This document shows, piece by piece, positions 8,505-23,913 of a DNA stretch of 64,000 nt. Every line of letters begins with the position of its first letter. Position 1 is the stretch's first letter. The notes beneath the pieces were generated by a model. It was given only the letters and a program-made list of their open reading frames with translations. It was not told the origin of the DNA and made no database searches. Origin of the DNA: Pseudalkalibacillus berkeleyi. Lineage in GTDB: Bacteria; Bacillota; Bacilli; Bacillales; Fictibacillaceae. The stretch is taken from positions 1,922,001 to 1,986,000 of the forward strand of contig NZ_JAKIJS010000001.1 in the NCBI RefSeq assembly GCF_021608225.1, in the 5' to 3' direction. Both the position numbers and the translations under genes were made by a program.

Positions 8505-9194
8505 CTAAACGTAGCCTTTTTCTTTAAGACTAACGAATTTTTGATCTCCAATAATAATGTGATCCAAAAGGTCTATCCCCATAATCTTTCCGCATTCGGT
8601 TAAACGTTGTGTGACTTCAATATCCTCCCGACTCGGACTAGGGTCTCCACTTGGATGATTGTGGAAACAAATGATGGAGGCAGCGGACCTCTTCATTGCT
8701 TCCTTAAAAACTTCTCTTGGATGAACAATGGAAGCATTTAAACTCCCAATGAAAACCGTTTGCTTATGCAATACTTGATTTTTCGTATTCAAATAGATGC
8801 AAACGAAATGCTCTTGTGATAAGAAGCGCATCTCATCCATTACATAATTCGCACCATCATCCGGAGATCGAATAATATAACGTTCATCTAATTGTAAGCG
8901 ACTTACACGTTTTCCGAGTTCTAGTGATGCAAGAATCTCTATCGCCTTTGCATTGCCAATTCCTTTGACAGAAGTCAGCTCATCAACGGTCGCATCTTTC
9001 AAAAGGTTAAGTCCTTCAAATTGTTGAATAACTCTTTGTGCAAGTTGAAGCACCGATTCTTCTTTCGTCCCGGAACGTAATAAAATCGCTAGTAATTCTT
9101 GATTGGAAAGAACGTTTGCACCTTCTTTTAGCATACGCTCTCTCGGTCTTTCATTCAATGGAAAATCACGGATGGTTAAGGGTTTCATCCCCAA
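8505..9194 (-). CDS. radC: RadC-family JAB1/MPN metalloprotein
   Basis: 229 residues. A helix-hairpin-helix lies at about 74-83 (VKGIGNAKA), and the JAMM zinc motif has H178, H180, S188 and D191 in HNHPSGDPSPSRED. The family was historically linked to DNA repair, but its enzymatic role is unsettled. The TTG at 9194 sits 8 bp after AGGAGG. The ATG at 9188 would be 14 bp away, so the TTG is preferred and the choice is not certain. The maf-radC-mreB order is standard. Confidence 0.92.
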   Translation of the reverse strand: MGMKPLTIRDFPLNERPRERMLKEGANVLSNQELLAILLRSGTKEESVLQLAQRVIQQFEGLNLLKDATVDELTSVKGIGNAKAIEILASLELGKRVSRLQLDERYIIRSPDDGANYVMDEMRFLSQEHFVCIYLNTKNQVLHKQTVFIGSLNASIVHPREVFKEAMKRSAASIICFHNHPSGDPSPSREDIEVTQRLTECGKIMGIDLLDHIIIGDQKFVSLKEKGYV

Positions 9195-9214
9195 TTCATC
9201 ATCCTCCTTAGGAT

Positions 9215-9796
9215 TTATTCCGTGACTGATCTTTTTGTAATGTCGAACGACTTTAATTCACGGACAGTCCGTGAAATAGGTAAACCAACAACATTAAAAT
9301 AATCACCATTTATCTGTTTGACAAGAGTTGAACCATAGCCTTGTATTCCATATGATCCAGCCTTATCTTTACATTCACCCAAGCTTACATATTCCTTTAT
9401 TTCCTCAGAAGTCAAAGTCCAAAACGTAACTTCTGTAGCTTCGTGAAAACAAATCTCCCGCTCCTCCGAAATAATTGCTACACCCGTATAAACTTGATGC
9501 GTTTTTCCTGAAAGCTTTGATAAAGTTTCGTATGCATCTTCATCACTTTTAGGCTTACCTAATACTTGGCCATCATAAACAACCACAGTATCTGAGCCTA
9601 GAACGACATCATCGGGGTAATATTGGGCAATATCCTTTGCTTTTCTTAAGGAAAGTTGCTCAACAATTTCAGCAGGTGTGTATTCATCACTAATGTTTTC
9701 ATTTACAGAACTTTTTTGGATAATGAATGGAAGGTGGGCTGTTTCTAGTAATTCTTTACGTCGAGGTGAGCCTGAAGCTAAAATGAGGCGTTTCAT
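9215..9796 (-). CDS. maf: Maf, nucleotide pyrophosphatase / septum-formation protein
   Basis: 193 residues starting MKRLILASGSPRRKELL, the diagnostic Maf motif, with VLGSDTVVVYDG in the active-site region. The family hydrolyses non-canonical nucleoside triphosphates such as dTTP or UTP derivatives, and its overproduction blocks septation in B. subtilis. The open frame extends 38 codons further upstream, but only the ATG at 9796 has a ribosome binding site (AAAGGGTGA) and family-like length. Confidence 0.93.
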   Translation of the reverse strand: MKRLILASGSPRRKELLETAHLPFIIQKSSVNENISDEYTPAEIVEQLSLRKAKDIAQYYPDDVVLGSDTVVVYDGQVLGKPKSDEDAYETLSKLSGKTHQVYTGVAIISEEREICFHEATEVTFWTLTSEEIKEYVSLGECKDKAGSYGIQGYGSTLVKQINGDYFNVVGLPISRTVRELKSFDITKRSVTE

Positions 9797-9907
9797 ACAA
9801 TCACCCTTTACGTTTAGAGTAGAGGTTACGATTGTCATTTTACTACAAATGAAGGGATTATTTACAGAATAGCAAATCCCTTCCAGTAAGACAACCAAAA
9901 ATAGTAG

Positions 9908-9942
9908 CACCCTCCTTTATTATCGTTCGTAACAGGAGGGTG
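9908..9942 (-). terminator. Terminator-like hairpin after spoIIB
   Basis: A perfect 8-bp inverted repeat, CACCCTCC (9908-9915) and GGAGGGTG (9935-9942), with a 19-nt loop. On the minus strand it is followed by a weak T stretch (TATTTTT). It separates spoIIB from maf. Confidence 0.6.
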
Positions 9943-9974
9943 ATTTATGACTATCTTTTGTTGAAAGCGTGTGG

Positions 9975-11018
9975 TTATTTTTTAAAGGACTGAACGAGGG
10001 CGATATAATGAATCGTCGCATCTAATTTAGCTTGTTGAATGGTCCACTTACCTTCATTTTGGTCCACTACAGCGGACATTGAATTAATGAATGCAACTGC
10101 TTTCTTTTGTTGGTCGGCTGTTAACTTTTCAACAGACCCCATCGCTTCTTTTTTCCATGATAACAAGTCAGACTCCATAGTATTCATGTCTGCAGTTCCA
10201 TAGCTCAATTCAAGCAAAGCCTTACCACTTTCGAGCCAGTGTGTATCTCCACTCGTTGGCACAGAAATTTCCTCTTCTCCCATTGTACGAGAATGGGAAT
10301 AAGGAGCTTCAGCGAGAATCTCCGTATTTTCATATACACTTGCTAACGCTTTTGCACCCTCTAGTGTACTACTTATACCAATATATACTCGGTAATCAAC
10401 AGGATCTACAGCAGCTGCATAGCCCTTTGCTATTATATTATTCGCGATTTCTTCAGCCGAAGCCGCAGATGAATAGAGTCCTGCTTGTACAACATAAGGT
10501 GAAATGATGGTATTTAATGAAGTCGTTTTGGGAGCTGAAATAGGGTTCTTAACTGGTGTTTCAACAGGTTGAGTAGCTGCTGGTGTGGTATTTGACTTAA
10601 ATTCGTCTCCTGTAAAAATCATTAATACGATCAAGCCGATGATCCCGCCAATGACAACTGCACTTACAATCGGCACTAGTAATTGCTTCGGCAATTGGAA
10701 TGGCGTTTTGGGAGCTGAAAAGGGACGTTTAAGAGAAGATGTTAACTTTTTTCGATGAATCGGCAGTCCGGGTTTTCTCTCATTTGAATAAGCATCATAT
10801 TCAGTAGATTCAGATTCATCACGATTTGCGTGAAAGAGATAAAGATTGGATGATGTATTTTCTTTCGGAAGAACCCATTCAAACGGTTGATCGATGAAAT
10901 CACCGTCTATTGATGCTGCAATCTCTTCATCTTTGTTTTGAATTTCAGCTTTTACCTCCTGCACAGGCCTGTCCTTCCCATTGACTCTAATCGTTATATT
11001 CTTTTCCTTGTCATCCAC
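9975..11018 (-). CDS. spoIIB: SpoIIB, SPOR-domain engulfment protein
   Basis: 347 residues. A charged cytoplasmic N-terminal region is followed by one membrane segment at about 118-140 (VPIVSAVVIGGIIGLIVLMI), then a low-complexity T/P linker and a SPOR domain starting near YVVQAGLYSS (about residue 175). In B. subtilis SpoIIB localises to the sporulation septum and helps recruit the SpoIIDMP engulfment machinery through peptidoglycan binding. Its position between the comC/pilus region and maf matches the Bacillus order. Sequence conservation outside the SPOR domain is low in this family. Confidence 0.85.
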   Translation of the reverse strand: MDDKEKNITIRVNGKDRPVQEVKAEIQNKDEEIAASIDGDFIDQPFEWVLPKENTSSNLYLFHANRDESESTEYDAYSNERKPGLPIHRKKLTSSLKRPFSAPKTPFQLPKQLLVPIVSAVVIGGIIGLIVLMIFTGDEFKSNTTPAATQPVETPVKNPISAPKTTSLNTIISPYVVQAGLYSSAASAEEIANNIIAKGYAAAVDPVDYRVYIGISSTLEGAKALASVYENTEILAEAPYSHSRTMGEEEISVPTSGDTHWLESGKALLELSYGTADMNTMESDLLSWKKEAMGSVEKLTADQQKKAVAFINSMSAVVDQNEGKWTIQQAKLDATIHYIALVQSFKK

Positions 11019-11115
11019 CCGGCATCAACTCCTTTTCTCTCAGTCTATTCTATGTATTTCACCAACGGATTAGAACATTATTGATAGAGTAGTAGAGAGA
11101 ATATACCATAGACCA

Positions 11116-11149
11116 AATGAAAAAGAACAAGACCTCTGTCGTCTTGTTC
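11116..11149 (-). terminator. Terminator of the type IV pilus operon
   Basis: A perfect 9-bp stem, GAACAAGAC (11125-11133) and GTCTTGTTC (11141-11149), is followed on the minus strand by TTTTTC. It lies about 30 bp past the pilO-like stop. Confidence 0.8.
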
Positions 11150-11179
11150 AGGAAAGTGTTCGAGTATTTTTGACAATAA

Positions 11180-11731
11180 TTATTGATAGTAAGTCTCCAG
11201 GTCGATTGTGTAGATGATAGGCGCTTTTTCTTCTTCACTAGATGCTGCTGTAAGATCTAATTTCAATACTTTGTACAGCCGCTCACTGCTTTCCAGCGTA
11301 CTTACGAACTTCTTAACAGATTCAATGTTAGGGGAACTGACCTCCAAAGAAAATGTCAATGGTTGAAGCTGTGAAGAAGTCACCGTTTGTTCACCTTGCT
11401 TCTCTTCATCCTCACCTTGGTTCTCTTCAAATGATAAATTACGAATTTCACTAGACGCTTCTTTTTCTGCATTCCGTAAATGAAGTACAATCTGATCTGT
11501 TGCAGGATATGAAGGAAGTGAAAACGCAATATCGGACTCTTCAGCGGATTTTTCTTTTAATTTCACTTTGGTAGCTTGAATGAGTGTTTTCTCATTTTTG
11601 ATGTCTTTTTCCAGTTGTTCGATATGTGCAAATGATGGGTGGACGAGCCACACATAGCTTGCGATCAGCACAAGAACAAGTATAAATGATAATAAAGCGA
11701 GCAACCTTTTTTGAGAAGGAACTGTAGACAT
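11180..11731 (-). CDS. PilO-like type IV pilus assembly protein
   Basis: 183 residues. A short basic N-terminus, one membrane segment at about 9-29, a charged coiled coil at about 35-60, then a compact domain. This is the architecture of PilO, which dimerises with PilN at the membrane and stabilises the pilus inner-membrane platform. Sequence identity to known PilO is low, so the call rests on architecture and on its place after the PilM- and PilN-like genes. Its ATG overlaps the preceding stop by 1 bp. It is the last gene before the operon terminator. Confidence 0.75.
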   Translation of the reverse strand: MSTVPSQKRLLALLSFILVLVLIASYVWLVHPSFAHIEQLEKDIKNEKTLIQATKVKLKEKSAEESDIAFSLPSYPATDQIVLHLRNAEKEASSEIRNLSFEENQGEDEEKQGEQTVTSSQLQPLTFSLEVSSPNIESVKKFVSTLESSERLYKVLKLDLTAASSEEEKAPIIYTIDLETYYQ

Positions 11732-12291
11732 TATCGTGTTCCTCCTTGACTTAAATATTGTAGAGGCTCATATTTCACATGTAGGTTTGCGATGTAGGAT
11801 TTCGTTGAAGCGTCCTCTGATTCTTGTTGATTGAGCTTTAGCAATTCAATGCTGTACATACCTTCCGCTTGAACCAATTGTTTTTGATATGCTGCAACGT
11901 CCTCTAAGCTTTTAAAGGAAGCCATCACATTTACATTTCCATCTTCAGCATAGGAAATATTTAATAGACCACCTGCAGGTAACCGTTTTAGGATATGATC
12001 AATGACTTTAATCGTTTCCACCCTCGTCCCTACAAGACTTTCAAATTCGTTACCAACCGATGAAGAACCATTTTCGTTTATTTCAGATAACTGCACCTGC
12101 AATCTTTCTGTCTGTGATTGATGCGCCTTGTAATCTGCTTCAAGCTGAGAAATATTTTGAGAACTTATATAATAAATGCTTCCAATACCGATTGAACAAA
12201 ACATAAATAAGGTAATAACGATCATAAAAGCTACTTTACTGGATCGAAGTCCGCTCCTTTTTTTCGGGAGTAAATTAATATCAACCTGCAC
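11731..12291 (-). CDS. PilN-like type IV pilus assembly protein
   Basis: 186 residues. The N-terminal QVDINLLPKK is the conserved PilN tail that inserts into PilM; related proteins carry an INLLP motif. One membrane segment follows at about 21-43, then a coiled coil and a small periplasm-type domain resembling the Fis1/PilN fold. It overlaps the PilM-like gene by 11 bp, which supports translational coupling and complex formation. Confidence 0.85.
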   Translation of the reverse strand: MQVDINLLPKKRSGLRSSKVAFMIVITLFMFCSIGIGSIYYISSQNISQLEADYKAHQSQTERLQVQLSEINENGSSSVGNEFESLVGTRVETIKVIDHILKRLPAGGLLNISYAEDGNVNVMASFKSLEDVAAYQKQLVQAEGMYSIELLKLNQQESEDASTKSYIANLHVKYEPLQYLSQGGTR

Positions 12292-13240
12292 GGTGACTCC
12301 CCCTCAACCCTAAGCCAACTGTCGTAAAAAACTCACGCTGAACATCCAATCCACGTTCAAGTTTGACCTTTTCTTCTGGTATTTGAATCACTTTCATATC
12401 ATACTCTGATTCTACTTTTTCTATAAATGCTTCATATTGCGGATGATCACCTGAAACGAGTATGGCATCAAATTCCGCTCCATCAGAAAGAGAAAATTGA
12501 TAAAAGTTCATGATACGACCAAGCTCAGTCGTTACTTCATTCCAGCGACCATCAATATCAAAGAAATCGTGGTCCTCATTTGCCGAGAACTGACCAATCG
12601 TATTCAAAGAGATGAAGCGTGTAAACATGGGTGAATGCTGGTAAAATGCAGATCCATTAATACCATCCCGCTCAAGATTCAGTAGTAAATACCTTTTCGC
12701 AGGATCTACTAATTCCAAATGATAATAAAGGCGATAGATTGCGAGAGAAGAGAGCTCAGCGTCTAAAGGTTTTAGTTTTGCATCATTTAAAACTTCCATA
12801 TAATCCTTCATCACGGCTTCTGGAGCAGCAAATAACAAATAATCAATATGCTCCTCTTCCTCTTTCAGCTTGTGAAGATCGAAAACTGGTTCATCAAAAG
12901 GGACATGAATAGTAGCACCTAATTCTACTTGTATGTATCCATCTAATTCCTTTTCAGGAATCGTGGAAGGAATCGGGATTTTACGAATAAATGAAATGGC
13001 ATCTGGTATCGCGAAACGAACTTTCTTACCTTTCATTTTCCAGTTGTTCACACAGCTAGTGACGATCTTAGTTAAGGCATGTTTATCAAGGATTCGTCCC
13101 TTTTGAATGATGCCGGCTGGTAATTTCGTTTCGCCAATTTTATGAATGACTAAAGGCGATTGACTTTTCATCGTAACGTATCGAATGCAATCATCTTGAA
13201 ACACAATAAATATAGGCAGCGCACTTTTGAACAGTTTCAC
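12281..13240 (-). CDS. pilM: PilM-like actin-fold type IV pilus protein
   Basis: 319 residues of the PilM/ComA-like actin-fold family. The N-terminus shows IFVVFQDDCIRYV-type first-strand character, and a central IPIPSTIPEKELDGYIQVELG segment matches the family pattern of VxxPxxPxxEL followed by a helix. In pili PilM is cytoplasmic, binds ATP and the PilN tail, and transmits assembly-ATPase state to the membrane complex. It is followed by overlapping pilN- and pilO-like genes. Confidence is good for the family, less for ATP binding, since the phosphate motifs look degenerate. Confidence 0.8.
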   Translation of the reverse strand: MKLFKSALPIFIVFQDDCIRYVTMKSQSPLVIHKIGETKLPAGIIQKGRILDKHALTKIVTSCVNNWKMKGKKVRFAIPDAISFIRKIPIPSTIPEKELDGYIQVELGATIHVPFDEPVFDLHKLKEEEEHIDYLLFAAPEAVMKDYMEVLNDAKLKPLDAELSSLAIYRLYYHLELVDPAKRYLLLNLERDGINGSAFYQHSPMFTRFISLNTIGQFSANEDHDFFDIDGRWNEVTTELGRIMNFYQFSLSDGAEFDAILVSGDHPQYEAFIEKVESEYDMKVIQIPEEKVKLERGLDVQREFFTTVGLGLRGSHRAG

Positions 13241-13255
13241 GGTCGTTGAACTCCT

Positions 13256-13996
13256 TTACCTAAAGTACCAATCTAGTATGATGTCTCCCCAGAACAATGT
13301 AATGAAAGCGGCCAACACAATGAATGGACCGAATGGCACGTGCTGTTTACGTTCAACTTTTTTGAGGATCATTAATATTATCCCGATAACGGAACCGATA
13401 AGCGATGCGAGAAATAGGATTAGCAATATCCCTTTCCAACCGAAGAAGAGACCTAGAACTGCAAATAGTTTTATATCACCGCCACCCATTCCACCTTTAC
13501 TAATAACAGCAATGAGGAATAATAAACTAAAGCCGATGATACTACCGAGCCAAGCGTCCCACCAAGGTTCTGTCGGTATCCAAAAACGGTACAAGATGAC
13601 CAATGGTGCAAAGAATAATAGGATTTTATCTGGAATCAGCATGTAAAAAATATCGCTAATAAAAATGATGATAAGTAGCGAGACAATGATCAGACTGCCG
13701 ATTAGCTCTGGTGACCATCCAAATTGTAGATAGCTAAAAGTAAACAATAATCCAGTGCTTACTTCTATCATCGGATAAATGGGAGATATTTTTGAATCGC
13801 AAGTGCGACATTTTCCTTTAAAAAGTTTGTAAGAAAGAACAGGAATTAGGTCAATGGATGAAAGTGGTCGCTGGCAGCTTGTACAATGGGAACCTGGACG
13901 GACAATCGACTTTTTCTCAGGCACCCGCAACCCAACCACATTATAAAAGGAACCAAACACCAAACCAAAAATAAAAAATAACGCTATGTACATCAA
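13256..13996 (-). CDS. comC: Type IV prepilin leader peptidase/N-methyltransferase
   Basis: 246 residues with about seven membrane segments. The cytoplasmic zinc-binding loop has C38, C41, C63 and C66, and the two catalytic aspartates are D115 (FISDIFYMLIPD) and D174 (GGMGGGDIKL). The family cleaves prepilins after the leader glycine and methylates the new N-terminus. B. subtilis has comC at exactly this position next to folC and spoIIB, where it processes competence pseudopilins. Here it lies within a full pilus operon and is the obvious processing enzyme for the pilins encoded at 14076, 18475 and 18860. Confidence 0.93.
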   Translation of the reverse strand: MMYIALFFIFGLVFGSFYNVVGLRVPEKKSIVRPGSHCTSCQRPLSSIDLIPVLSYKLFKGKCRTCDSKISPIYPMIEVSTGLLFTFSYLQFGWSPELIGSLIIVSLLIIIFISDIFYMLIPDKILLFFAPLVILYRFWIPTEPWWDAWLGSIIGFSLLFLIAVISKGGMGGGDIKLFAVLGLFFGWKGILLILFLASLIGSVIGIILMILKKVERKQHVPFGPFIVLAAFITLFWGDIILDWYFR

Positions 13997-14018
13997 AATC
14001 TACCCCTATATAGGAATG

Positions 14019-14042
14019 AAACCCTCTCGTAGGAGAGGGTTG
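14019..14042 (-). terminator. Hairpin between the pilin gene and the peptidase gene
   Basis: A perfect stem, AACCCTCTC paired with GAGAGGGTT and a 4-nt loop (14020-14041). On the minus strand a broken T-run (TTTCATT) follows. It lies 34 bp after the pilin stop within the operon, so partial termination or 3'-end protection of pilin mRNA is likely, not full termination. Confidence 0.6.
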
Positions 14043-14075
14043 TTTAAAAAATCATATTGATATCAGAACTATCTA

Positions 14076-14453
14076 TTATGGAGATGATGTTCCACTTGAT
14101 AAAGTTACACCTGTTACTTTTCCATCTGCAACCGCGACACTGAGTGTAGTATAAGCGCTACCAGTCTGAGGATCTTCTGGTATTTCTTCAAGATAGTCTG
14201 GTACTAATTGCGTATCTGTTAAAGTTCCACTTTCATATTCTTCAGCAACAATATACAATCTAGCAGCCTCTTCAACGCTTTCCTCATTAGCTGTATGTGC
14301 ATTAGTTTTTGTTTTTTCCATCAATCCACCAATAGATGGCACTGCAATCGCAGCAATAATTCCTAAAATAACGATCGTTGCTAGTAACTCAACAAGTGTA
14401 AATCCTTTTTCAGACTTAACGGCTTTCATTCTCTTTGATAAAATCTTTTTCAT
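14076..14453 (-). CDS. Major type IV pilin precursor
   Basis: 125 residues. The class III signal SEKG|FTLVELLATIVILG gives cleavage after G17, F18 as residue 1 and E22 as the conserved +5 glutamate. The hydrophobic assembly helix runs to about residue 42. The small globular domain ends in a T/S/G-rich tail. It has no cysteine pair for a D-loop. It lies between the platform gene pilC and the peptidase, and is the only pilin in the main operon, so it is the likely major subunit. It could instead be a ComGC-like competence pilin, but the linked PilT favours a true retractable pilus. Confidence 0.88.
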   Translation of the reverse strand: MKKILSKRMKAVKSEKGFTLVELLATIVILGIIAAIAVPSIGGLMEKTKTNAHTANEESVEEAARLYIVAEEYESGTLTDTQLVPDYLEEIPEDPQTGSAYTTLSVAVADGKVTGVTLSSGTSSP

Positions 14454-14471
14454 ACATTGAACTCCCCTTTT

Positions 14472-15683
14472 TTATAGATTGATATTTTCATATAACCCGA
14501 ACATGGGCAATACGACAGATAGAACAATCACACCGACAACGAGTGACAAGAACAAAATCAACACCGGCTCTAACAATGCTTGAAGTCGATCGGTAATGTG
14601 ATCTACTTCGGATTCATAAAACTGAGTAATTTTCGTTAGCATGGCATCCAAGTTTCCTGTTTGTTCACCAATCAGGATCATATGTAGCACTAACGGTGGA
14701 AAAGGCCAATCACCCCTCATTGGAACGGTCATTGAATTTCCTTCCTCTACAGATTGTATCGACTCGTTTATGATCTTTTTGAAGACGTTATTGTTCACGA
14801 TGTTACGAGTGATCTTCATCGATTGCAGGATGGGGACTGAGCTAGTAAATAGGGAGCTGAGCGTTCTGGAAAATTCAATAATTAGCGTTTTTTGTAAAAT
14901 AGTGCCTAATATTGGCACCTTTAGTATAGCATAATCTATGTAATATTTACCATACTCTTTTTTTCTAAAAAAATAGAATGCTAATATTACTACAAACCCA
15001 AGGGTAATAAATACCCACCAATACGATAATGTGAACTGACTAATTGATAAAACCCATTTCGTTAACATCGGTAATTCTTGTTCCGAGTTCGCATACATGG
15101 ATGTAAATCGTGGAACGACCATGTACAGTAATACATTTAATACCGCAATTGATACGACGCCTAAAAGAATCGGATAGGTTAAGGCTGATATTACTTTTTG
15201 CCGCATCTCATACCGTTTCTCAAAATAATCTGCGAGCCGTATCATCGCAGAATCCAAGTTTCCGCTCACTTCTCCAACTCTCGTTAAGTGGATGACCATT
15301 TGCGGAAAGACATTCGGATGACGATTCATCGCATTTGAAAGTGATTCTCCCTCTTGTACTTGATCCTTAATAGTACTTAATGCACTCTTCAATGGTTTGT
15401 ACTGTGACTGATCATGTAGGATATGAACAGATTTCACAACAGAAATTCCTGCTTCTAGTAACGCGGAAAATTGTCTTAAGAACATGACGAGTTCTCGTGG
15501 GTTAATCCCTTTGGAAATGGAAATATCCTTCGTAAAGACACTTTCACGATGCTCTGCAATGTCGATTGGAATAATGCCACGCTCCTTGAGCATGGAGACA
15601 GCACTTGTTTTCGTCTCTGCATCTACTTGGCCCTTCGTCTTTTTTCCAGTAGGATCCCTACCCTGGTATACGTAAATCGCCAT
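14472..15683 (-). CDS. pilC: PilC/GspF-family pilus platform protein
   Basis: 403 residues. It starts with the YVYQGRDPTGKKTKG motif typical of PilC, has two repeated T2SSF domains (about 70-190 and 270-395), and three main membrane segments near 170-190, 220-240 and 375-397. It forms the inner-membrane platform on which assembly and retraction ATPases act. Its start is 1 bp from the pilT stop. Confidence 0.93.
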   Translation of the reverse strand: MAIYVYQGRDPTGKKTKGQVDAETKTSAVSMLKERGIIPIDIAEHRESVFTKDISISKGINPRELVMFLRQFSALLEAGISVVKSVHILHDQSQYKPLKSALSTIKDQVQEGESLSNAMNRHPNVFPQMVIHLTRVGEVSGNLDSAMIRLADYFEKRYEMRQKVISALTYPILLGVVSIAVLNVLLYMVVPRFTSMYANSEQELPMLTKWVLSISQFTLSYWWVFITLGFVVILAFYFFRKKEYGKYYIDYAILKVPILGTILQKTLIIEFSRTLSSLFTSSVPILQSMKITRNIVNNNVFKKIINESIQSVEEGNSMTVPMRGDWPFPPLVLHMILIGEQTGNLDAMLTKITQFYESEVDHITDRLQALLEPVLILFLSLVVGVIVLSVVLPMFGLYENINL

Positions 15684-15684
15684 A

Positions 15685-16734
15685 TTAAACCATCATCTCT
15701 TTTAAGAATGGTTTTGCAGTTTCAGATGAGATCTCACCTGCACGTAACGCCTCTTGGATCGACATTTCCAATGTATACATACCTTGTGCTTTGCTCGTCT
15801 GCATCAAACTCTTGATTTGATAAATTTTCTCGTTACGGATTAAGTTCGATATTCCGGAATTATTAATAAGCAGTTCTGTAACGAGCTTTCGTCCATCTTT
15901 ACTTTGGTTCGTCAATAACCTTTGGGAAATAACAGAAACCATAACAGATGCGAGTTGCACTCTTATTTGAGATTGCTGGTTTGCTGGGAAGACGTCAATG
16001 ATTCGGTCAATCGTCGAAGGTGCATCCGTCGTATGCAAAGTACCTAGCACAAGATGTCCAGTTTCAGCAGCCGTAATCGCCGTTGATATCGTCTCTAAGT
16101 CTCGCATTTCCCCAACAAGAATAATATCAGGGTCCTGACGTAATGCAGCCCGTAAACCTGAAGGGAACCCCTTCGTATCTAATCCAATTTCTCTTTGCAG
16201 GATGACGGATTTATTATGCCTATGTAAGTATTCAATTGGATCTTCTAATGTAATGATATTCCGATTCATATGCTGATTCACATAATTGATCATCGAAGCT
16301 AGAGTTGTTGATTTACCGCTCCCAGTAGGGCCAGTTACTAATACAAGTCCTTGAGACTTGTGCATAATTTCATTGATTGTAGTTGGGAGCCCAAGCTGCT
16401 CGATTGCTGGAATTTCATTTGGAATGATTCGAATCGCTAGACTAATACTAGATCGTTGATAAAACGCGTTAATCCTGAACCTTGAAATCATCGCAATTCC
16501 GTATGAAAAGTCCAACTCACCCGTTTCATTGAATTCCTTCCATTCCGTTTCATCCATCAATTCTCTTGCAATATGCTCCGCATCTTCAGGTGTCAATCTT
16601 GGCAGATCACGTTGATTGAGCTCTCCATGAATTCGAAATACCGGTACTAACCCACTAGATAAGTGAACATCAGATGCTTTCATTTTGTGGGCTTCAATTA
16701 ATAATTCTTGAACAAACTCTAATGTATATTTCAT
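15685..16734 (-). CDS. pilT: PilT, pilus retraction ATPase
   Basis: 349 residues. It opens with a PilT-type N-domain (ASDVHLSSG at 20-28), has Walker A GPTGSGKS at 135-142, an Asp box (ITLEDPIEYLH), Walker B DIILVGEMRD at about 203-212 and the His box TGHLVLGTLHTT. It lacks the C-terminal tetracysteine zinc motif of PilB. PilT hexamers depolymerise pilin and power twitching and DNA uptake. Its presence argues for a dynamic pilus, since the B. subtilis com pseudopilus has no PilT. Confidence 0.95.
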   Translation of the reverse strand: MKYTLEFVQELLIEAHKMKASDVHLSSGLVPVFRIHGELNQRDLPRLTPEDAEHIARELMDETEWKEFNETGELDFSYGIAMISRFRINAFYQRSSISLAIRIIPNEIPAIEQLGLPTTINEIMHKSQGLVLVTGPTGSGKSTTLASMINYVNQHMNRNIITLEDPIEYLHRHNKSVILQREIGLDTKGFPSGLRAALRQDPDIILVGEMRDLETISTAITAAETGHLVLGTLHTTDAPSTIDRIIDVFPANQQSQIRVQLASVMVSVISQRLLTNQSKDGRKLVTELLINNSGISNLIRNEKIYQIKSLMQTSKAQGMYTLEMSIQEALRAGEISSETAKPFLKEMMV

Positions 16735-16746
16735 CCCAAACTCCCC

Positions 16747-18372
16747 CTAGTCAACCAATGACACACTAATGACCTCTTCTATTGTCGTCAATCCTTGCTT
16801 CGCTTTCATTAATCCATCATCAAACAACCACTTCGTATCGTTTTCCTGAAAATGTTTTTTGATTGCATCGTTTGACTTTTTCTGTAAGATCAATTCACGT
16901 ATAATATCGTCAAGTTGAATGACTTCGTGAATAGGTATCCTTCTTTTAAATCCAGAATTTCTGCAGCTTGCACACCCCGCTCCGCGATATAAGGTTTCAA
17001 CAGATAAATTTCTCGTCAAAAAGATCTCTCTCTCTTTCTCGCTCGGCGTATATTCTTGTATGCAGTCATTGCAGATTTTTCGTACGAGTCGCTGACCGAC
17101 TACGCCAGATAATGAAGAGGCAATTAAATACGGCTCAATGCCCATATCAATCAACCGGGTAATTGCACTAATCGCATCATTCGTATGTAATGTCGAGAGC
17201 ACAAGATGACCTGTTAGTGAGGACTGAATCGCAATCTCAGCTGTCTCTGCATCACGGATTTCCCCAACCATGATGATGTTAGGATCTTGTCTTAGAATCG
17301 AACGCAAACCACTAGAGAATGTCAGCCCAACGGATGTATTCACCTGAATTTGATTAATACCTTGAAGCTGATACTCAACAGGATCCTCAACCGTAATAAT
17401 ATTAACTTCCTCCCGGTTCAACCTACTCAGTCCAGTATAGAGTGTGGACGTTTTACCTGACCCAGTAGGACCCGTCAATAACATCAACCCGTTCGGCCGG
17501 TCCAGTAAAGATTTGAAAATCCGTTCATTTTTTTCTGTAAAATGTAGCGCAGACATATTCAAGTTTGTTTTTGATAAATCCAATAATCGGATAACAACCT
17601 TTTCACCATGCATTGTCGGAAGAATGGAAATACGCAAATCTACTTTACTATTGTTTAACTTTAATTTAATACGTCCATCCTGCGGGATTCTGAACTCAGT
17701 AATATCTAAATCGGCCATAACTTTAATCCTTGAGATGATAGCGCTCTGTATTTTTTTAGGGAATGAGTGCTCATTACGGAGCACACCATCGACTCGAAAT
17801 CGTACGAGAACCTGCTGTTCCTGTGGATCGATATGTATATCACTTGCTAGACTCTCAACTGCATCAGAGAGAATTTGATCGACGACTTTTACTGCTGAGG
17901 CTTCCAATTCCTCTTCCTTCTTCGGTGCTCCATCAGGCTTTCCTTGCACGGGTTTTCCGTAATATTTATTAATGGCTTGAATAATTTCGGTCTTGCCTGC
18001 AATAACCGGCATAATTTGAAAACCTGTAGATAGGCGTAAATCCTCAATGGCATAGAAGTCCATCGGATCTGCCATCGCAACAGTAAGTTGATCGTTTTGT
18101 TTCCGAATGGGTATGTAAACATTTCTTCTCGCTAATTCTTTTGGGACAAGAGACATGAGACTAGCGTCTATTTCCGTGTTGGTAAGGCGTACATGTGGAA
18201 TGCCTAATTGGAACTCAAGAACTTCAATTAGTTTATTTTCCGTAATGATTCCGCGATCAACGAGTGCGTCACCTAGCTTCTGGTTCCTTGGTTTGTCTTT
18301 TAATACTTCATCCAGCTGTGCCTGTGTAATCATTTCTTTACTAAGAAGAAGATCACCTAATCGCAGTTTCAT
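16747..18372 (-). CDS. pilB: PilB, pilus extension ATPase with MshEN-like N-domain
   Basis: 541 residues. Residues 4-57 hold two tandem motifs (RLGDLLLSKEMITQAQLDEVL and KLGDALVDRGIITENKLIEVL) resembling the MshEN domain that binds cyclic di-GMP; the first lacks its usual glycine (SKEMIT). ATPase motifs are Walker A GPTGSGKT at 301-308, Asp box 326-335, Walker B IIMVGEIRD at 366-374 and His box 388-400. A zinc tetracysteine (C434, C437, C467, C470) marks PilB against PilT. It is the first gene of the minus-strand pilus operon, in the order pilB-pilT-pilC. Confidence 0.94.
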   Translation of the reverse strand: MKLRLGDLLLSKEMITQAQLDEVLKDKPRNQKLGDALVDRGIITENKLIEVLEFQLGIPHVRLTNTEIDASLMSLVPKELARRNVYIPIRKQNDQLTVAMADPMDFYAIEDLRLSTGFQIMPVIAGKTEIIQAINKYYGKPVQGKPDGAPKKEEELEASAVKVVDQILSDAVESLASDIHIDPQEQQVLVRFRVDGVLRNEHSFPKKIQSAIISRIKVMADLDITEFRIPQDGRIKLKLNNSKVDLRISILPTMHGEKVVIRLLDLSKTNLNMSALHFTEKNERIFKSLLDRPNGLMLLTGPTGSGKTSTLYTGLSRLNREEVNIITVEDPVEYQLQGINQIQVNTSVGLTFSSGLRSILRQDPNIIMVGEIRDAETAEIAIQSSLTGHLVLSTLHTNDAISAITRLIDMGIEPYLIASSLSGVVGQRLVRKICNDCIQEYTPSEKEREIFLTRNLSVETLYRGAGCASCRNSGFKRRIPIHEVIQLDDIIRELILQKKSNDAIKKHFQENDTKWLFDDGLMKAKQGLTTIEEVISVSLVD

Positions 18373-18413
18373 ACTACCACCCTTTATCGCTTTTGATTCT
18401 TCTTTACTATTAA

Positions 18414-18441
18414 TCTATATAATAAATGAAAATAATGTTAA
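18414..18441 (-). promoter_or_regulatory. Candidate sigma-A promoter of the pilus operon
   Basis: Minus strand TTAACA (18436-18441), 16 bp, then TATAGA (18414-18419), about 40 bp before the pilB ATG. The 102-bp divergent region is very AT-rich, so chance matches are easy, and no separate plus-strand promoter could be fixed with confidence. Confidence 0.4.
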
Positions 18442-18474
18442 AATATAGTTAATTATGAAGAAAGTAGTTGAAAA

Positions 18475-18858
18475 ATGATGATGAAAAATCAAAAGGGCAT
18501 GTCTTTAATTGAAGTCTTAGTTACCATTGTCATTATAGGGATCGTATTCACCCTCATCTCACAAACCACCAGCTACGTTACAACTGCTACTCAACTACAT
18601 GACCGGAAAGCAGAAGCGATCTCGATAGCTGAAAGAACATTAAACGAAGCGCTTGAGAACAAACCAAAAGACAACTTTGCAACGAGCGAAGGACCATATT
18701 CTGTGAAAGGGTATGTTAAATCCAAGCCTGGAACGATTAATCAGTCGAACAAAGTGGTTCTTTCTGGTATCTATATTGATAAAAAAGATAAAGGCGGACT
18801 TGAACTAGAGTCACTCGAACAAGTAATCATTACAGTAGTCGTATCATGGGGGAATTGA
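18475..18858 (+). CDS. Minor pilin with type IV prepilin signal (first of pair)
   Basis: 127 residues. The class III signal NQKG|MSLIEVLVTIVIIG cleaves after G8 and keeps E13 as the +5 glutamate, followed by the hydrophobic helix. It resembles PilV/GspI-type minor pilins (IEVLVTIVI and SIAERTLNEAL). It reads away from pilB, and the next pilin starts 1 bp after its stop. Three in-frame ATGs occur at the start (18475, 18478, 18481). The ribosome binding site is weak (GAAAGTAG). Minor pilins prime assembly or modify the tip. Confidence 0.85.
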   Translation: MMMKNQKGMSLIEVLVTIVIIGIVFTLISQTTSYVTTATQLHDRKAEAISIAERTLNEALENKPKDNFATSEGPYSVKGYVKSKPGTINQSNKVVLSGIYIDKKDKGGLELESLEQVIITVVVSWGN

Positions 18859-18859
18859 T

Positions 18860-19345
18860 ATGAAGAATGAAAAGGGCATTACTTTAATAGAACTATTGGC
18901 GACTATTACAATATTTTCTATGATTGTCGGTGTGTCATACAGTATGATTACATATGTCCAAGGTTCATGGATTCATACAAAAGGAATCACTCAAACAGAA
19001 TCGAAAGTCCAGGAATTGCAAACCGTTTTAACAAGGGAACTCTCGTCACCTTTAGAAATAACCTTTTCAGGTCACTCCCTAACTTTCAAGCAAAGGGAAG
19101 GGAAAACAATTAATCTAAAATTGAACGGTAATACACTAACACTAGAAAAAGACGGGACAGTAAATCATTCTTTTTCTTTACCTGTAAACAAAATCGAGTT
19201 TCACAATGAAAAAGATAGCGCAATTGCAACGCTATCTGAGGGTATTGGATATTTGAAGATCTATTATTCTAAAACCGGACTTAAATCCAAACAAGAGAAT
19301 CTCACTTTAACAATTAATGTGTATGAAGGATCAGTTATTAAATAA
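18860..19345 (+). CDS. Minor pilin with type IV prepilin signal (second of pair)
   Basis: 161 residues. The signal NEKG|ITLIELLATITIFS cleaves after G6 and E11 is the +5 glutamate. The rest resembles PilW/ComGF/GspJ-type minor pilins with a long beta-rich domain (TFSGHSLTFKQREGKT, LKLNGNTLTLEKDG). It is translated directly after the first minor pilin. Its last 15 bp overlap the 3' end of the convergent gene at 19331, so there is no room for a terminator between them. Confidence 0.82.
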   Translation: MKNEKGITLIELLATITIFSMIVGVSYSMITYVQGSWIHTKGITQTESKVQELQTVLTRELSSPLEITFSGHSLTFKQREGKTINLKLNGNTLTLEKDGTVNHSFSLPVNKIEFHNEKDSAIATLSEGIGYLKIYYSKTGLKSKQENLTLTINVYEGSVIK

Positions 19346-20449
19346 GACAGGCTTCTTAATAGTAGTCCCTTTGAAGGTATTGTTTAGATCTACCAAGATC
19401 TTTCCACTCGTTACCTTTGATGGGATTACTTTTTTGTTGTTCCCTTGCGTAAATTCCCATCCAGCAAATAAGTATATATCCCTTTTTGAAATCATTGTTG
19501 AATTGATTACTGTTACATCCCCATTTGGTGCCTGAACGATAAGATTTCTTCTTGCACTGTTTCCGATAGTTTCTAGTGTTGTGTCATTCATAATGATATT
19601 CCCATGCTTAGAATGTACGAGGATGTTGTATGGATAATTTTGTTTTTTATCTTTACCATTTCCATCATCACAATCATCGTCATCTTTCTTTTTCTGCTTC
19701 TTTTTTTCTTTATCATCGTCTTCTTCTTCGCAATCATCTTCGTCGTCATTATCTTTTATAGCACCTTCGCCATTCCATTCAGCCTGGATTTTATATCCAC
19801 CTTTAAAGTTGATATTTCCATTTGCCACAATTTCAATTTTGGAATCTCTATGGTACTCATTGCTACCATCATTTACATCAAAGATCGTAATGTCACCATA
19901 ATAAGGAGTACCTTTTATGTAGGTATCAAAAGGAACAAATCGCTCATCCTGATGTAAATAGACGTGTTGCCCAGGTCCTAGACCAGTTGTCGTAAGGAGC
20001 TTCATTTCATGTTCCGTGTAAAAAGACTCTCCAGGATCTTTTTGATGATTACCATTTTTATCTCCAGATACACCTTGAATGACCAACGTGTACTCACCTG
20101 AATACGTTGAGAATTTGTCGAAGGTCAACTTTTTCCCGTTTTTATCAAGGACATGATGATATAAATTGTGAGAACCCCTTGAACTTGAAAGAATTTCTAA
20201 AGGTTTATTAAGTAAGTTGGAATTTGAGAGTAAATATTTCACTTGTTCTTGAGGACTTAAGTTTTCAAAGGATTCCATCGCACTGACTGCGATGTTGACC
20301 GCTTGCTTTTGATGGACGATTCTGGCGTCGTTTAACAATAACTTGTTATACATAGAATATGATGCTGGTATTAAGAGGCCAATTACCATAATGACCATCA
20401 AGACAATGACTAAGACACCACCTTGATTAGATCTTACTATACTCTTCAT
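19331..20449 (-). CDS. Pilus-locus membrane protein with acidic tract and Ca-loop-like motif
   Basis: 372 residues, no named family recognised. It resembles PilX-type pilus proteins: a short basic N-terminus and a membrane helix at about 11-30 (GVLVIVLMVIMVIGLLIPAS) followed by an export-oriented body. The G9-G11 region lacks the glutamate at +5, so it is not a canonical prepilin. Residues 130-141 (DKNGNHQKDPGE) resemble an EF-hand-like calcium loop. Residues 233-269 form a D/E/K tract with C240 and C260. The C-terminal part has repeating beta strands (HGNIIMND, NGDVTVINS) like a beta-solenoid. It may be a tip or surface component of the pilus. Confidence 0.7.
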   Translation of the reverse strand: MKSIVRSNQGGVLVIVLMVIMVIGLLIPASYSMYNKLLLNDARIVHQKQAVNIAVSAMESFENLSPQEQVKYLLSNSNLLNKPLEILSSSRGSHNLYHHVLDKNGKKLTFDKFSTYSGEYTLVIQGVSGDKNGNHQKDPGESFYTEHEMKLLTTTGLGPGQHVYLHQDERFVPFDTYIKGTPYYGDITIFDVNDGSNEYHRDSKIEIVANGNINFKGGYKIQAEWNGEGAIKDNDDEDDCEEEDDDKEKKKQKKKDDDDCDDGNGKDKKQNYPYNILVHSKHGNIIMNDTTLETIGNSARRNLIVQAPNGDVTVINSTMISKRDIYLFAGWEFTQGNNKKVIPSKVTSGKILVDLNNTFKGTTIKKPVLFNN

Positions 20450-20716
20450 ACTAACCCCCTCAATATTTATGTACCTATTCTTATTATCTAGTAAAATGTT
20501 CCTGTTGAAAAGGAAAAATTTTCAGAAATCGACAAAAAATCCTTGTTCGTCTTAGGGGATTAAGAAACTTGGAGATGAATCCTAGTTTCATGAGGCTATT
20601 GCCGTTAGAAAGAAGTCCAATTCTTTCTCCGGAGTTGCAAGCAATTTACAGGGTTCTTCCACTCTTACGTTTCACTTCCCCGAATCTCCTTCCTCTCCGT
20701 TCCTTTTCATCCACAC
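20450..20716 (-). other. Noncoding leader or intergenic region, partly structured
   Basis: About 270 bp before the 372-residue gene. On the minus strand it holds a purine-rich run near 20690-20715, a perfect hairpin AGAAAGAA/TTCTTTCT at 20607-20628, TTGC/GCAA around 20634-20644, and a CCTTG/AAACT set of overlapping short pairings up to 20600. An ORF on the plus strand across it has no ribosome binding site and looks random. It may be a structured 5' UTR, but no known riboswitch consensus was recognised. Confidence 0.35.
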
Positions 20717-20751
20717 AAAAAAGACCAAGCAGATTTTCATTCTGCTTGGTC
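20717..20751 (-). terminator. Terminator of the diguanylate cyclase gene
   Basis: A perfect 11-bp stem, GACCAAGCAGA (20723-20733) and TCTGCTTGGTC (20741-20751), is followed on the minus strand by TTTTTT. It begins 7 bp after the stop codon. Confidence 0.9.
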
Positions 20752-20757
20752 CTTAAC

Positions 20758-22455
20758 CTATCCGATATAGCTTGCTACTTTATTTCTTCCTTTTTGTTTG
20801 GCTCCTGTGTACATGGCGCGGTCAGCGTTTCGTATAAGAGTTAGTGGATCTTCACCTTGTTCCGGTGCTGTTGCGACGCCTATACTGACGGTTATGTTAA
20901 TCGCTTTGTTTCTATAATCACCTAAGTCATTTTTAATCGTGAAGGTGTTCAATGATATATCTTCTCTAATTGCCTCTGCTAACTCCAAAGTGTCAGAGTG
21001 TGCAAGATCTTCTAATAGAATGACAAATTCTTCACCGCCATATCTTGCCACAGTACCATTATCGCCAATGATTTGCACAAGGCGATCGGCGACCTGACAA
21101 AGCACAACGTTACCAGCTTGGTGACCGAAGGTATCGTTTACCTTTTTGAAATGGTCGATATCAAGTAAGATCAATGAAAATGGTTTTCTGCTCTGTTTAT
21201 GATTCACATACATTTCTGAGAGCACGTCTTCAAAATATCGGTAATTATATAAATTCGTAAGATGACATCGTTCACTTTTATGCTTAGTCGCTTCATAGTT
21301 CTTTGCTTTCTCAATAGCAACTGCCAAGTAGTTTGAAATAATTTCTAAGATCATCTCATGCGATTTTTCATATGCTCTTTTTTGAGTCGAAATAAACGTA
21401 ATAACGCCAACGACTTCTTGATTTCGATACATGGGTACAGATAGGACAGATTGTGCTGAAAGCGGCATAAAACCACGTGAGAATTTACGCCATTGATGTC
21501 GTCTTTCAAATCTTAAGCTATTGCCACTTTCCCAAACCTTACCACTGATGCCTTCGCCTTTTACCAATCCTGAGATTTGAATCGTAGGTACTTTTTTAGA
21601 TTCATACCTTCTTATTACGTTCAGGTTTTCTCCATCATTAATATCAAGTATGTATGCATAGTCTACTTTTAACATTTTCGTCATACGCGCGAGATAAATA
21701 TCTAAGATTTCATCAACATTTAGGCTCTCTGTCAATTCTTGTCCAATTTTACTCGTAAACTTTAGAAGGTGATTGATCTTTTGGCTAGAATGATACAGCC
21801 GCAAAATTAACGAGATCACTACGAATGGCAGGCCGACAAAAAGAATGGCTGCTGTTCCTAATTGAGAGTATAGAATGAAGAAGGTGATCCCTACTGGTAG
21901 GATAATTAATTCCATGAGAAGTTCCCAAAGAAAATCCTTTGCGAACAATGAACTCTTCTCTTTATATATTTCATTTCGTAGAAAATATAAGATGATGTGA
22001 TTCGTTAAAATGGCTGTAATAGAGTAGCCAATAACAGGAATGAGTGCTGGGTACTCATTCATACCGAGGCCGCCAATTTCTCCTCCTAATAAGTAATAGA
22101 CTATCGCTGCGTTCGCAGAAACTACCATAAACATGATGGAGCTCGTACCAAGTCGATATAATGGATACCTTAGCTTCATAATAGAAATCGCAATCGTAAT
22201 CTGAACGAGAACAAGCTCTACCAATAAACCAAAATGTAAAAACACTGCCAGGGAAATACCTTGTATGAATGAAATGTTTGTGCCCATGATTTGAATAGGA
22301 AAAAGAGCTACGACGACCATAAGCAACAACATGCCGAAGATATCGAACCAATATCCGTCCAAGGAGGGAATGGAAAAAGTAGAAAATGCCCAGAGGACTA
22401 TACCCCATGATGCCAAACAAATGATTGCCAATATACGTTTAGCATTCTGACTCAT
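20758..22455 (-). CDS. Membrane GAF-GGDEF diguanylate cyclase
   Basis: 565 residues. About six membrane helices fill the first 200 residues, a GAF domain spans about 225-370, and a GGDEF domain starts at about 400. The active site is RYGGEEF, with LILLDIDHFKKVNDTFGHQAG upstream, so catalysis of cyclic di-GMP from GTP is likely. No RxxD product-inhibition site precedes GGEEF. The ATG at 22455 follows AAAGGGGGG; an in-frame TTG at 22473 lies inside that site. It has its own terminator and lies between the pilus locus and folC, an unusual neighbour in Bacillus. Confidence 0.9.
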   Translation of the reverse strand: MSQNAKRILAIICLASWGIVLWAFSTFSIPSLDGYWFDIFGMLLLMVVVALFPIQIMGTNISFIQGISLAVFLHFGLLVELVLVQITIAISIMKLRYPLYRLGTSSIMFMVVSANAAIVYYLLGGEIGGLGMNEYPALIPVIGYSITAILTNHIILYFLRNEIYKEKSSLFAKDFLWELLMELIILPVGITFFILYSQLGTAAILFVGLPFVVISLILRLYHSSQKINHLLKFTSKIGQELTESLNVDEILDIYLARMTKMLKVDYAYILDINDGENLNVIRRYESKKVPTIQISGLVKGEGISGKVWESGNSLRFERRHQWRKFSRGFMPLSAQSVLSVPMYRNQEVVGVITFISTQKRAYEKSHEMILEIISNYLAVAIEKAKNYEATKHKSERCHLTNLYNYRYFEDVLSEMYVNHKQSRKPFSLILLDIDHFKKVNDTFGHQAGNVVLCQVADRLVQIIGDNGTVARYGGEEFVILLEDLAHSDTLELAEAIREDISLNTFTIKNDLGDYRNKAINITVSIGVATAPEQGEDPLTLIRNADRAMYTGAKQKGRNKVASYIG

Positions 22456-22552
22456 CCACAGCCCCCCTTTCAAATCACTTTGTGACTAACGTACTACTTT
22501 TCCTATTCATATTTTAACAAACAATTCTAAAAATTGTCACCAAGAATTTACT

Positions 22553-23851
22553 TTATTTTTTATTTTTCAAAAAATTTCGTACTGTTGAAATAAAATAAAG
22601 TGATCCAGTGATGACTAGGACAGTATTTTCATCCATTTTTTCTCTTTCTAATCGAATCGCCTTTTCAAAATTTTCCTCTAGGTCTTTCTTCTTAAAAGTA
22701 CATACATCATAAAGTGATTCGGCAGAACTAGCTCTATGAAAACGAAACGATGTAAATGTAATATGATCAATCGTATCGTATAATGTTGATAACATTTCTT
22801 CTATTGGTTTATCTTTCAGCGCACTAAAAATCAACCGCTTATTCTTGTTCGGATAATGTGATTTTAAAGTAGCTTTTAAACTTTCAATTCCTTCTTTATT
22901 ATGTGCGCCATCAACAATGATCAATGGATTCTCACTCATTGTTTCGAATCTTCCTGGCCATGATGCTTGTTTAAGACCATTTGAAATATCATTCTGTGAA
23001 ATCCTGAATTCGTTATGCTCAATTAACTTTTCTATTAATAGTACAGCGAGCGACGCATTTTTCACTTGATGCTCCCCGCTCATTTTAAGTTGAAGACTCT
23101 CATATAAGTGTCTAGTTGTTTGTAATGTGAATTGCTCCCCTTGTTCCAGTGCCATATGATTGAAGATTGAACAAGCTTGATCTAGCTTTGTCAACTCAAC
23201 GTTTTTTACACTCGCTTGTTCTTCAATGACTTGTAGTGCTTCCTCTTGTTCAACGCCCGTTACCATCGGAATGTTTTTCTTCATTATCCCGCTTTTTTCA
23301 AATGCGATTTCAGCTAGCGTTTCACCTAATATAGCAGTATGATCATAACCGATTGTTGTAATTGCGGTTAAAATTGGCTGAATGACATTCGTAGAATCAA
23401 AACGCCCCCCTAGTCCTGTTTCAAATATGATAATGTCAGGATTTTGATGTCTAGCAAAATAAACCATCGACAATACCGTAACAACTTCAAACTCAGTTGG
23501 TGTGCCAAATTCAGTTGCAGCTACTTTTTCAACAATGGGTCTTACTTCATTTGCAACCGCGACTAACTCTTGATCTGGAATGGGTACACCGTTCATCGAA
23601 ATCCGTTCATTAAATTGTTCTATATAAGGTGAAGTAAAGGTTCCAACAGTGTATCCAGCCTCTTGTAGCACACATCGCATATATGTGAGCGTTGAGCCTT
23701 TCCCATTTGTTCCTGCAATATGGACGGAGGTCAGTTCCTTTTCAGGATTTCCTAGTTCTTCAAGCATTTTTTCCATGCGGGATAGTCCAGGCTTCATCCC
23801 AAAAGCGAGCAACTCATGTATCCAGTGCAATGTTTCTTCGTATGTTTTCAT
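22553..23851 (-). CDS. folC: Folylpolyglutamate synthase / dihydrofolate synthase
   Basis: 432 residues of the Mur ligase family. The ATP loop is SVHIAGTNGKGSTLTY (about 42-57), with FETGLGGRFDSTN in the central domain and DGAHNKEGI in the C-terminal domain. The enzyme adds glutamates to folates, and in many Bacilli also makes dihydrofolate. It lies downstream of valS as in B. subtilis, here 62 bp away with a hairpin between. Confidence 0.95.
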   Translation of the reverse strand: MKTYEETLHWIHELLAFGMKPGLSRMEKMLEELGNPEKELTSVHIAGTNGKGSTLTYMRCVLQEAGYTVGTFTSPYIEQFNERISMNGVPIPDQELVAVANEVRPIVEKVAATEFGTPTEFEVVTVLSMVYFARHQNPDIIIFETGLGGRFDSTNVIQPILTAITTIGYDHTAILGETLAEIAFEKSGIMKKNIPMVTGVEQEEALQVIEEQASVKNVELTKLDQACSIFNHMALEQGEQFTLQTTRHLYESLQLKMSGEHQVKNASLAVLLIEKLIEHNEFRISQNDISNGLKQASWPGRFETMSENPLIIVDGAHNKEGIESLKATLKSHYPNKNKRLIFSALKDKPIEEMLSTLYDTIDHITFTSFRFHRASSAESLYDVCTFKKKDLEENFEKAIRLEREKMDENTVLVITGSLYFISTVRNFLKNKK

Positions 23852-23878
23852 ATTAAAAACTCCTATGTACTATGAAGA

Positions 23879-23902
23879 AGACGAATCTGATTCGATTCGT
23901 CT
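23879..23902 (-). terminator. Weak hairpin between valS and folC
   Basis: AGACGAATC (23879-23887) and GATTCGTCT (23894-23902) form a perfect 9-bp stem. The minus strand shows only TTCTTC afterwards, so it may attenuate or process rather than stop transcription. Confidence 0.4.
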
Positions 23903-23913
23903 CCTCATAATAT

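Follow-up and report, generated by a model that had tools for sequence, protein, structure and literature searches.

Pil operons have been reported in Bacillus sp. NRRL B-14911, two Geobacillus and Exiguobacterium, where they are found together with com operons (Imam et al. 2011, PMC3244431). According to the same paper, pilT is present in a significant number of Gram-positive pil operons, Bacillus sp. NRRL B-14911 carries two tad operons besides pil and com, and ComG has no homologs of other Pil components. An expressed type IV pilus (T4P) operon is described for Paenibacillus thiaminolyticus (PMC9765702). In B. subtilis the peptidase gene comC lies between folC and maf beside spoIIB, and comC of B. 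anthracis is located elsewhere (PMC7232415). We describe a pil locus at positions 11180-20449 of a 64,000-nucleotide stretch of the Pseudalkalibacillus berkeleyi genome (this whole stretch is called the window, and coordinates are positions within it). With a probability of about 75%, we read it as a functional, retractable, Gram-positive T4P locus of type IVa-like kind that occupies its ancestral site between folC and spoIIB/maf/radC/mreB, the lone comC of B. subtilis being a pilD left after deletions.

The window genome resembles those of Imam et al. in having a pil operon together with com operons, a likeness by description and not by sequence comparison; the chromosomal site of those operons and the origin of comC lie outside the passages of that paper considered here. 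The operon of P. thiaminolyticus Mbale encodes PilB, PilT, PilC, a pilin, PilD, PilM and PilN in the same order, judged by locus tag, and its PilB carries an MshEN domain as the window PilB does (PMC9765702). That operon is described as a mobile insertion, whereas the window locus stands at a conserved housekeeping site. ComC of B. subtilis is a peptidase at the same place as window PilD (PMC7232415), which supports an earlier reading of this DNA from its letters alone (the sequence-only reading) that had put the pil locus where B. subtilis has comC. Unlike in the window, the other pil genes are missing at the comC site of B. subtilis. The locus and its parts are a further example of an already known kind of pilus, which is neither rare nor ComG.

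Results

Gene content of the locus

The locus holds an intact pil set of pilB, pilT, pilC, pilA, pilD, pilM, pilN and pilO as well as three pilin-like genes. Read along the minus strand (18372 to 11180), the order is pilB-pilT-pilC-pilA-pilD-pilM-pilN-pilO (lengths in amino acids, aa):

16747..18372, minus strand: pilB, extension ATPase, 541 aa, with an N-terminal MshE-type cyclic di-GMP (c-di-GMP) domain; T2SSE and MshEN above the Pfam cut-off
15685..16734, minus strand: pilT, retraction ATPase, 349 aa; TIGR01420 472.9 bits against a cut-off of 319.1 (NCBIfam)
14472..15683, minus strand: pilC, platform protein, 403 aa; T2SSF 201.7 bits against 25.2
14076..14453, minus strand: pilA, major prepilin candidate, 125 aa; N_methyl 33.2 bits against 21.2, IV_pilin_GFxxxE above cut-off
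13256..13996, minus strand: pilD/comC, prepilin peptidase, 246 aa, TTG start; A24_N_bact and Peptidase_A24 above cut-off
12281..13240, minus strand: pilM, 319 aa; PilM_2 52.8 bits against 27
11731..12291, minus strand: pilN-like, 186 aa, INLLP motif; named by position, motif and matches of relatives
11180..11731, minus strand: pilO-like, 183 aa; T2SSM 20.1 bits, below cut-off; named by position and matches of relatives

Inspection of the open reading frames (ORFs) revealed no internal stop in any named pil frame, and the possibility that several genes are broken was rejected since all frames are open. A G-rich stretch a few bases 5' of the start precedes most pil genes and is weak for pilC and the first minor pilin. 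The NCBIfam equivalog or subfamily cut-offs were missed by PilB (591 versus 676 for type_IV_pilB), PilC (376 versus 424) and PilM (71 versus 133), and solved PilB chains align with window PilB over nearly its full length. Window PilN had no family match; among aligned relatives from the same place, Pfam PilN was matched by 13 of 21 and Pfam PilO by 6 of 20 (E <= 0.01), and an INLL-like motif lies within the first 30 residues in 62 of 64 PilN candidates. The locus thus comprises the parts of a type IVa-like, Gram-positive pil operon, namely a PilB-type ATPase, PilT, PilC, prepilins, a bifunctional-type PilD and PilM/N/O, with PilN and PilO counted through relatives and motif only. The named record nearest to window PilC comes from Rossellomorea aquimaris EaN35-1 (88% identity). 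A diderm type IVa pilus has the secretin PilQ and PilP; whole-genome searches for secretin and PilP gave nothing over cut-off (best E 0.18 and 0.2).

The sequence-only reading had already listed pilB, pilT, pilC, a major pilin, two minor pilins, a peptidase and PilM/N/O-like genes and the absence of secretin and PilP, and it had named inactivating mutations as grounds for abandoning its claim. The listed genes are all present as intact ORFs, the absences hold genome-wide, and no such mutation was found. Its pilin inventory was right about the two minor pilins and left a 372-aa gene inside its range unnamed.

A separate comG operon and a single prepilin peptidase

The genome carries a separate comG operon at C1:1704000-1713000, in which ComGA, GB, GC, GD and GF scored above and GE below cut-off; a seventh frame in the place of ComGG had no match. 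The second, ComG-type set that the sequence-only reading had proposed to look for is therefore present elsewhere, in line with its view that the window locus is distinct from the ComG pseudopilus. Window proteins scored below the ComG cut-offs (PilB 277 versus 300 for ComGA, PilC 141 versus 240 for ComGB, pilin 29.5 versus 75 for ComGC), and with the true comG operon elsewhere, an assignment of the window locus as the ComG set was rejected. To our knowledge, ComG has no PilT, PilM, PilN or PilO. Three tad-like loci lie elsewhere, with ATPases nearest to the TadA model (338-347 bits versus a cut-off of 373); window PilB reached 41.9 bits against this cut-off, and a Tad/Flp pilus was rejected as well.

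The sole A24_N match of the genome is window PilD; the A24 family has two further matches, both of them shorter genes located at a tad-like locus, so that two of the three such loci have one. One A24_N peptidase is found in each of 34 genomes of the family. Within the order, 129 of 130 genomes have such a peptidase, with two copies only in genome G119. Because the genome has a single A24_N peptidase gene, window PilD, as sole full-length prepilin peptidase, should also mature the ComG pilins.

Conservation of the chromosomal site

Within the window's family, PilT exceeded the family cut-off in 19 of 34 genomes. At E <= 1e-90 it was found in 205 of 299 genomes (94 of 116 genera) of the order and in 224 of 398 genomes (99 of 146 genera) of the class. 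The suggestion in the sequence-only reading that such a locus is unusual for the group did not survive these counts, and Bacillus pil operons were published in 2011.

We read 20-kb stretches around pilD (a few shorter, at contig ends) by tblastn with the window proteins in 76 genera, one genome each; these are genera g5-g81 of the order sample minus g53, whose genome has no A24_N match. The genes folC/valS or spoIIB/maf/radC/mreB were taken as flank genes of the site. In 54 of the 76 genera pilB, pilT and pilC lie beside pilD, with a flank gene of the site in view in 49 of these 54. Another 18 genera have none of the three genes beside pilD, 15 of them between the same flanks, and in 17 of these 18 loci pilD is the sole pil gene kept among those sought, the exception being G058, which also has pilM, pilN and pilO. 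Outside the order, 13 of 20 PilT-positive genomes (20 families, from the best class-wide matches) show one of the same flanks. Synteny at spoIIB-folC, the comparison proposed by the sequence-only reading, is thus shared by loci with and without pilB, pilT and pilC. The simplest reading would be that the class inherited a pil locus at this site.

Among the 18 genomes without pilB/T/C at the site, one (G070) has PilT elsewhere and the other 17 lack PilT altogether. ComGA was found at E <= 1e-85 in 17 of the 18, among them G076 with a score below the model cut-off; G109 had none. The remaining four genera have partial loci: G044; G117 and G146, both without pilT; and G120, in which the gene order differs and the stretch ends inside pilB. 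At L153 (G117) and L162 (G146), pilB, C, A, D, M and O are in view without pilT, and neither genome has a PilT at E <= 1e-90; their pili may possibly be non-retracting. L167 (G156) has two neighbouring pil sets, with two PilT matches about 12 kb apart.

Presence and absence among close relatives

The window's genus is represented by eight genomes, of which five carry the full locus; in the other three (G027, G029 and G030) the site reads spoIIB-pilD-ggdef-folC. A flank tree of mreB, radC, folC and valS (63 rows, 40 full and 23 not) pairs G027 with the full G032 (support 99) and G029/G030 with the full G033 (100), so that presence and absence interleave in this genus. The pil tree of the five full congeners has the same branching order as the flank tree, and the lone PilDs of the genus fall inside the genus in the PilD tree. 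Genus g4 (seven genomes) has two full loci, four that read spoIIB-pilD-folC and one that reads spoIIB-pilD-ggdef-folC. Two genomes hold pil remnants. G044 has pilC, A, D and M, frames in the N and O places and a pilT stretch of 58 residues, and its pilB is not in view. G058 has pilD, M, N, O and a VanW-like gene, without pilA, B, C and T.

We also compared PilD between the two kinds of loci. The median ratio of PilD to flank distance is 1.47 without pilB/T/C (n=23) versus 1.24 in full loci (n=39), taxa that are not independent. In 14 PilD pairs chosen greedily on disjoint tree paths, the lone PilD was faster in 12 (sign test p 0.013) and, with the flank difference subtracted, in 10 (Wilcoxon p 0.033). 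This acceleration would fit relaxed or shifted constraint, on one analysis with modest p values.

Minor pilins, flanking genes and c-di-GMP parts

Upstream of pilB lie three pilin-like genes:

18475..18858, plus strand: minor prepilin, GspI/PilV-like, 127 aa, divergent from pilB; N_methyl 34.5 bits, gspI E 2e-5 and pilV E 7e-4, both below cut-off
18860..19345, plus strand: minor prepilin, GspJ-like, 161 aa; N_methyl 29.5 bits, gspJ E 0.002, below cut-off
19331..20449, minus strand: PilX/GspK-like protein, 372 aa, convergent with the minor pilins; pilin-like N-terminus, name inferred

N_methyl is present in three prepilins, PilA and the two minor pilins. The 372-aa protein had no meaningful Pfam match, has a pilin-like hydrophobic N-terminus without the usual Glu5, and has orthologues in four congeners (36-54% identity). 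A missing Glu5 is what we take to mark GspK/PilX-type tip pilins, and together with the two minor pilins this protein may form a GspI-J-K-type tip complex. Its residues from about 232 to 271 form an Asp/Glu/Lys-rich insert with cysteines that is missing in three of the four congener orthologues; the orthologue L074 has a similar insert in a different place.

On its spoIIB side the locus is bordered by a SPOR-domain protein (9975-11018). A GAF-GGDEF gene intervenes between the locus and folC, and of the placement between spoIIB and the folC side only the spoIIB flank is directly adjacent. The following features belong to the flanks:

20758..22473, minus strand: GAF-GGDEF protein, putative diguanylate cyclase next to folC, 571 aa from TTG; GGDEF 143.8 bits against 23.8
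20720..20754, minus strand: terminator-like stem, 14 pairs, behind the GGDEF gene; terminator scan
11125..11149, minus strand: terminator-like stem, 9 pairs, behind pilO; terminator scan

A later ATG is a likelier start of the GAF-GGDEF gene than the TTG, and 35 of 36 relatives longer than 500 aa have a GG[DE]EF motif. The terminator scan found 10 such sites versus 7.1 expected in the scanned region. A promoter scan was uninformative (32 sites versus 37 expected), and no known RNA element, such as a c-di-GMP riboswitch, was found in 9000-24000 at E <= 1. PilB carries the c-di-GMP motif NF053729 (56.7 bits versus a cut-off of 38), its N-domain matches MshEN 5htl (E 5e-19), and in the aligned PilB set Arg4 is present in 64 of 67 and Gly6 in 67 of 67 proteins. 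Control of the pilus by c-di-GMP through the MshE-type domain of PilB is suggested by these parts.

VanW-like and LysM proteins at other loci

A VanW-like protein is encoded in 54 of 65 full order and family loci (L073-L168), always on the pilB strand and within 300 bp of pilB in 48 of the 54. It was found in one of 28 loci without pilB/T/C (G058) and in none of the window's genus. The Pfam VanW match was checked for two of these proteins. Lists of resistance modules often include VanW (PMC5521131); at these loci the protein seems instead to accompany the pilus.

Six of 64 PilO candidates, of which only the eight longer than 300 aa were examined, end in a C-terminal LysM above the Pfam cut-off:

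L095:3471-4448, L101:3377-4375, L109:3512-4453, L121:15711-16793, L130:3334-4410, L166:15724-16812: LysM-ending PilO candidates

Such a LysM could possibly anchor a pilus machine without an outer membrane to peptidoglycan.

Discussion

The gene content, the single A24_N peptidase, the synteny, the interleaved presence and absence within genera and the remnants are observed directly. The direction of change that we favor, loss in place, is argued from the tree congruence, from pil genes being absent to either side of pilD, from the remnants and from how widely the site is shared. We infer the filament, its retraction and the reason for keeping pilD as follows. PilD would mature PilA and the minor pilins, PilM-N-O and PilC would build the platform, and the GspI/J/K-like proteins would prime the filament tip. 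PilB would extend the filament, probably on binding of c-di-GMP to its MshE-type domain, and PilT would retract it. The pilus genes on both sides of pilD would have been deleted in many relatives, leaving the lone comC of B. subtilis, and pilD would have been kept because the ComG pilins need it.

Several observations weigh against this account. The 63-row tree requires at least 16 changes, or 15-17 losses when the midpoint root is taken to have had the locus, and change counts alone cannot separate gain from loss. Speaking for the account, distances correlate between flank and pil core (rho 0.50, 39 taxa), flank and full-locus PilD (0.46, 39) and pil core and PilD (0.43, 63), each with 0 of 999 permutations; this congruence is real, but the values are moderate, so that transfer also occurred or the trees are noisy, and some transfer is therefore likely too. 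Relative to flank distance, the window's genus has pil genes that are remote from those of genera g3 and g4 (ratios 1.75-2.38 versus a median of 1.32). These long distances hint that the whole cluster may have been replaced in place in the window's genus, but one clade for the family's pil genes was not rejected (approximately unbiased (AU) test, p 0.244). In genus g2 (L089-L092; genomes G001, G017 and G018) the pil cluster is separate from the folC/spoIIB flank genes, and two of these genomes, G017 and G018, have their pilD elsewhere. In the lone-pilD congener G030 the comG place holds fragments only and pilD is intact (L193, G030:C1:118000-128000); this peptidase without a Com or a Pil pilus is perhaps a very recent state. 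As for c-di-GMP, a GGDEF gene can be seen at 18 of 27 full loci and also at 5 of 15 loci without pilB/T/C, and the terminator-like stem separates it from the pil genes in the window. This stem argues for separate GGDEF and pil transcripts; a co-transcribed GGDEF partner was rejected on both grounds, and the c-di-GMP link is drawn from parts.

Repeated transfer to the same place would turn the order of events around: the lone comC would be ancestral and the pil genes gained around it. T4P loci do move, as the clusters of G001, G017 and G018 illustrate, the Paenibacillus operon is read as a mobile insertion by its authors (PMC9765702), and the moderate congruence of pil and flank trees and the distance of the window genus's pil genes from those of other genera of the family point the same way. 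We nevertheless consider this unlikely, since it requires that most sampled genera acquired genes to either side of pilD, in one and the same order and at the same site, and since it has to face the identical pil and flank branching within the window's genus, the remnants in G044 and G058 and the same flanks in 13 of 20 families outside the order. A short, non-retracting secretion pseudopilus akin to the type II secretion system (T2SS), or a silent locus, would agree with minor pilins nearest to the GspI and GspJ models and with promoter-like sites no more frequent than by chance, but it appears improbable given a PilT above its curated cut-off and an intact set kept by five species of the genus; the absent secretin is not needed in a single-membrane cell. 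Even harder to credit is a locus that belongs to the competence machine, with PilT or the whole pilus serving ComG in DNA uptake: PilD is in all likelihood common to Pil and ComG and the comG loci have no PilT of their own in the families matched, but ComG has its own ATPase, platform and pilins, and ComGA persists in 17 of the 18 genomes without pilB/T/C at the site, 17 of the 18 being without PilT altogether.

Under loss in place, it seems fairly probable that the ancestor of the Bacilli had a retractable, c-di-GMP-linked pilus at folC-spoIIB/maf and a separate ComG, both served by one peptidase, that the pilus was repeatedly lost in place, that comC of B. subtilis is the only gene remaining from an extinct pilus operon and that the lone peptidases evolve faster. 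What is new is the proposed direction, with the pil locus as the ancestral state and B. subtilis comC as the leftover; our searches of open-licence PMC papers turned up no claim that comC is left over from a pil operon. Instead of placing the pil locus at the position of comC, it is more apt to say that comC occupies the position of the pil locus. If true, this would explain why comC of B. subtilis stands apart from comG among unrelated genes, and the prediction would be that in most genera of the order a single peptidase serves two type IV filaments. Congeners that carry the locus and congeners that lack it would then offer a direct test of what the pilus contributes and of the role of PilT in competence, and also of how a shared enzyme changes after the loss of one of its two machines.

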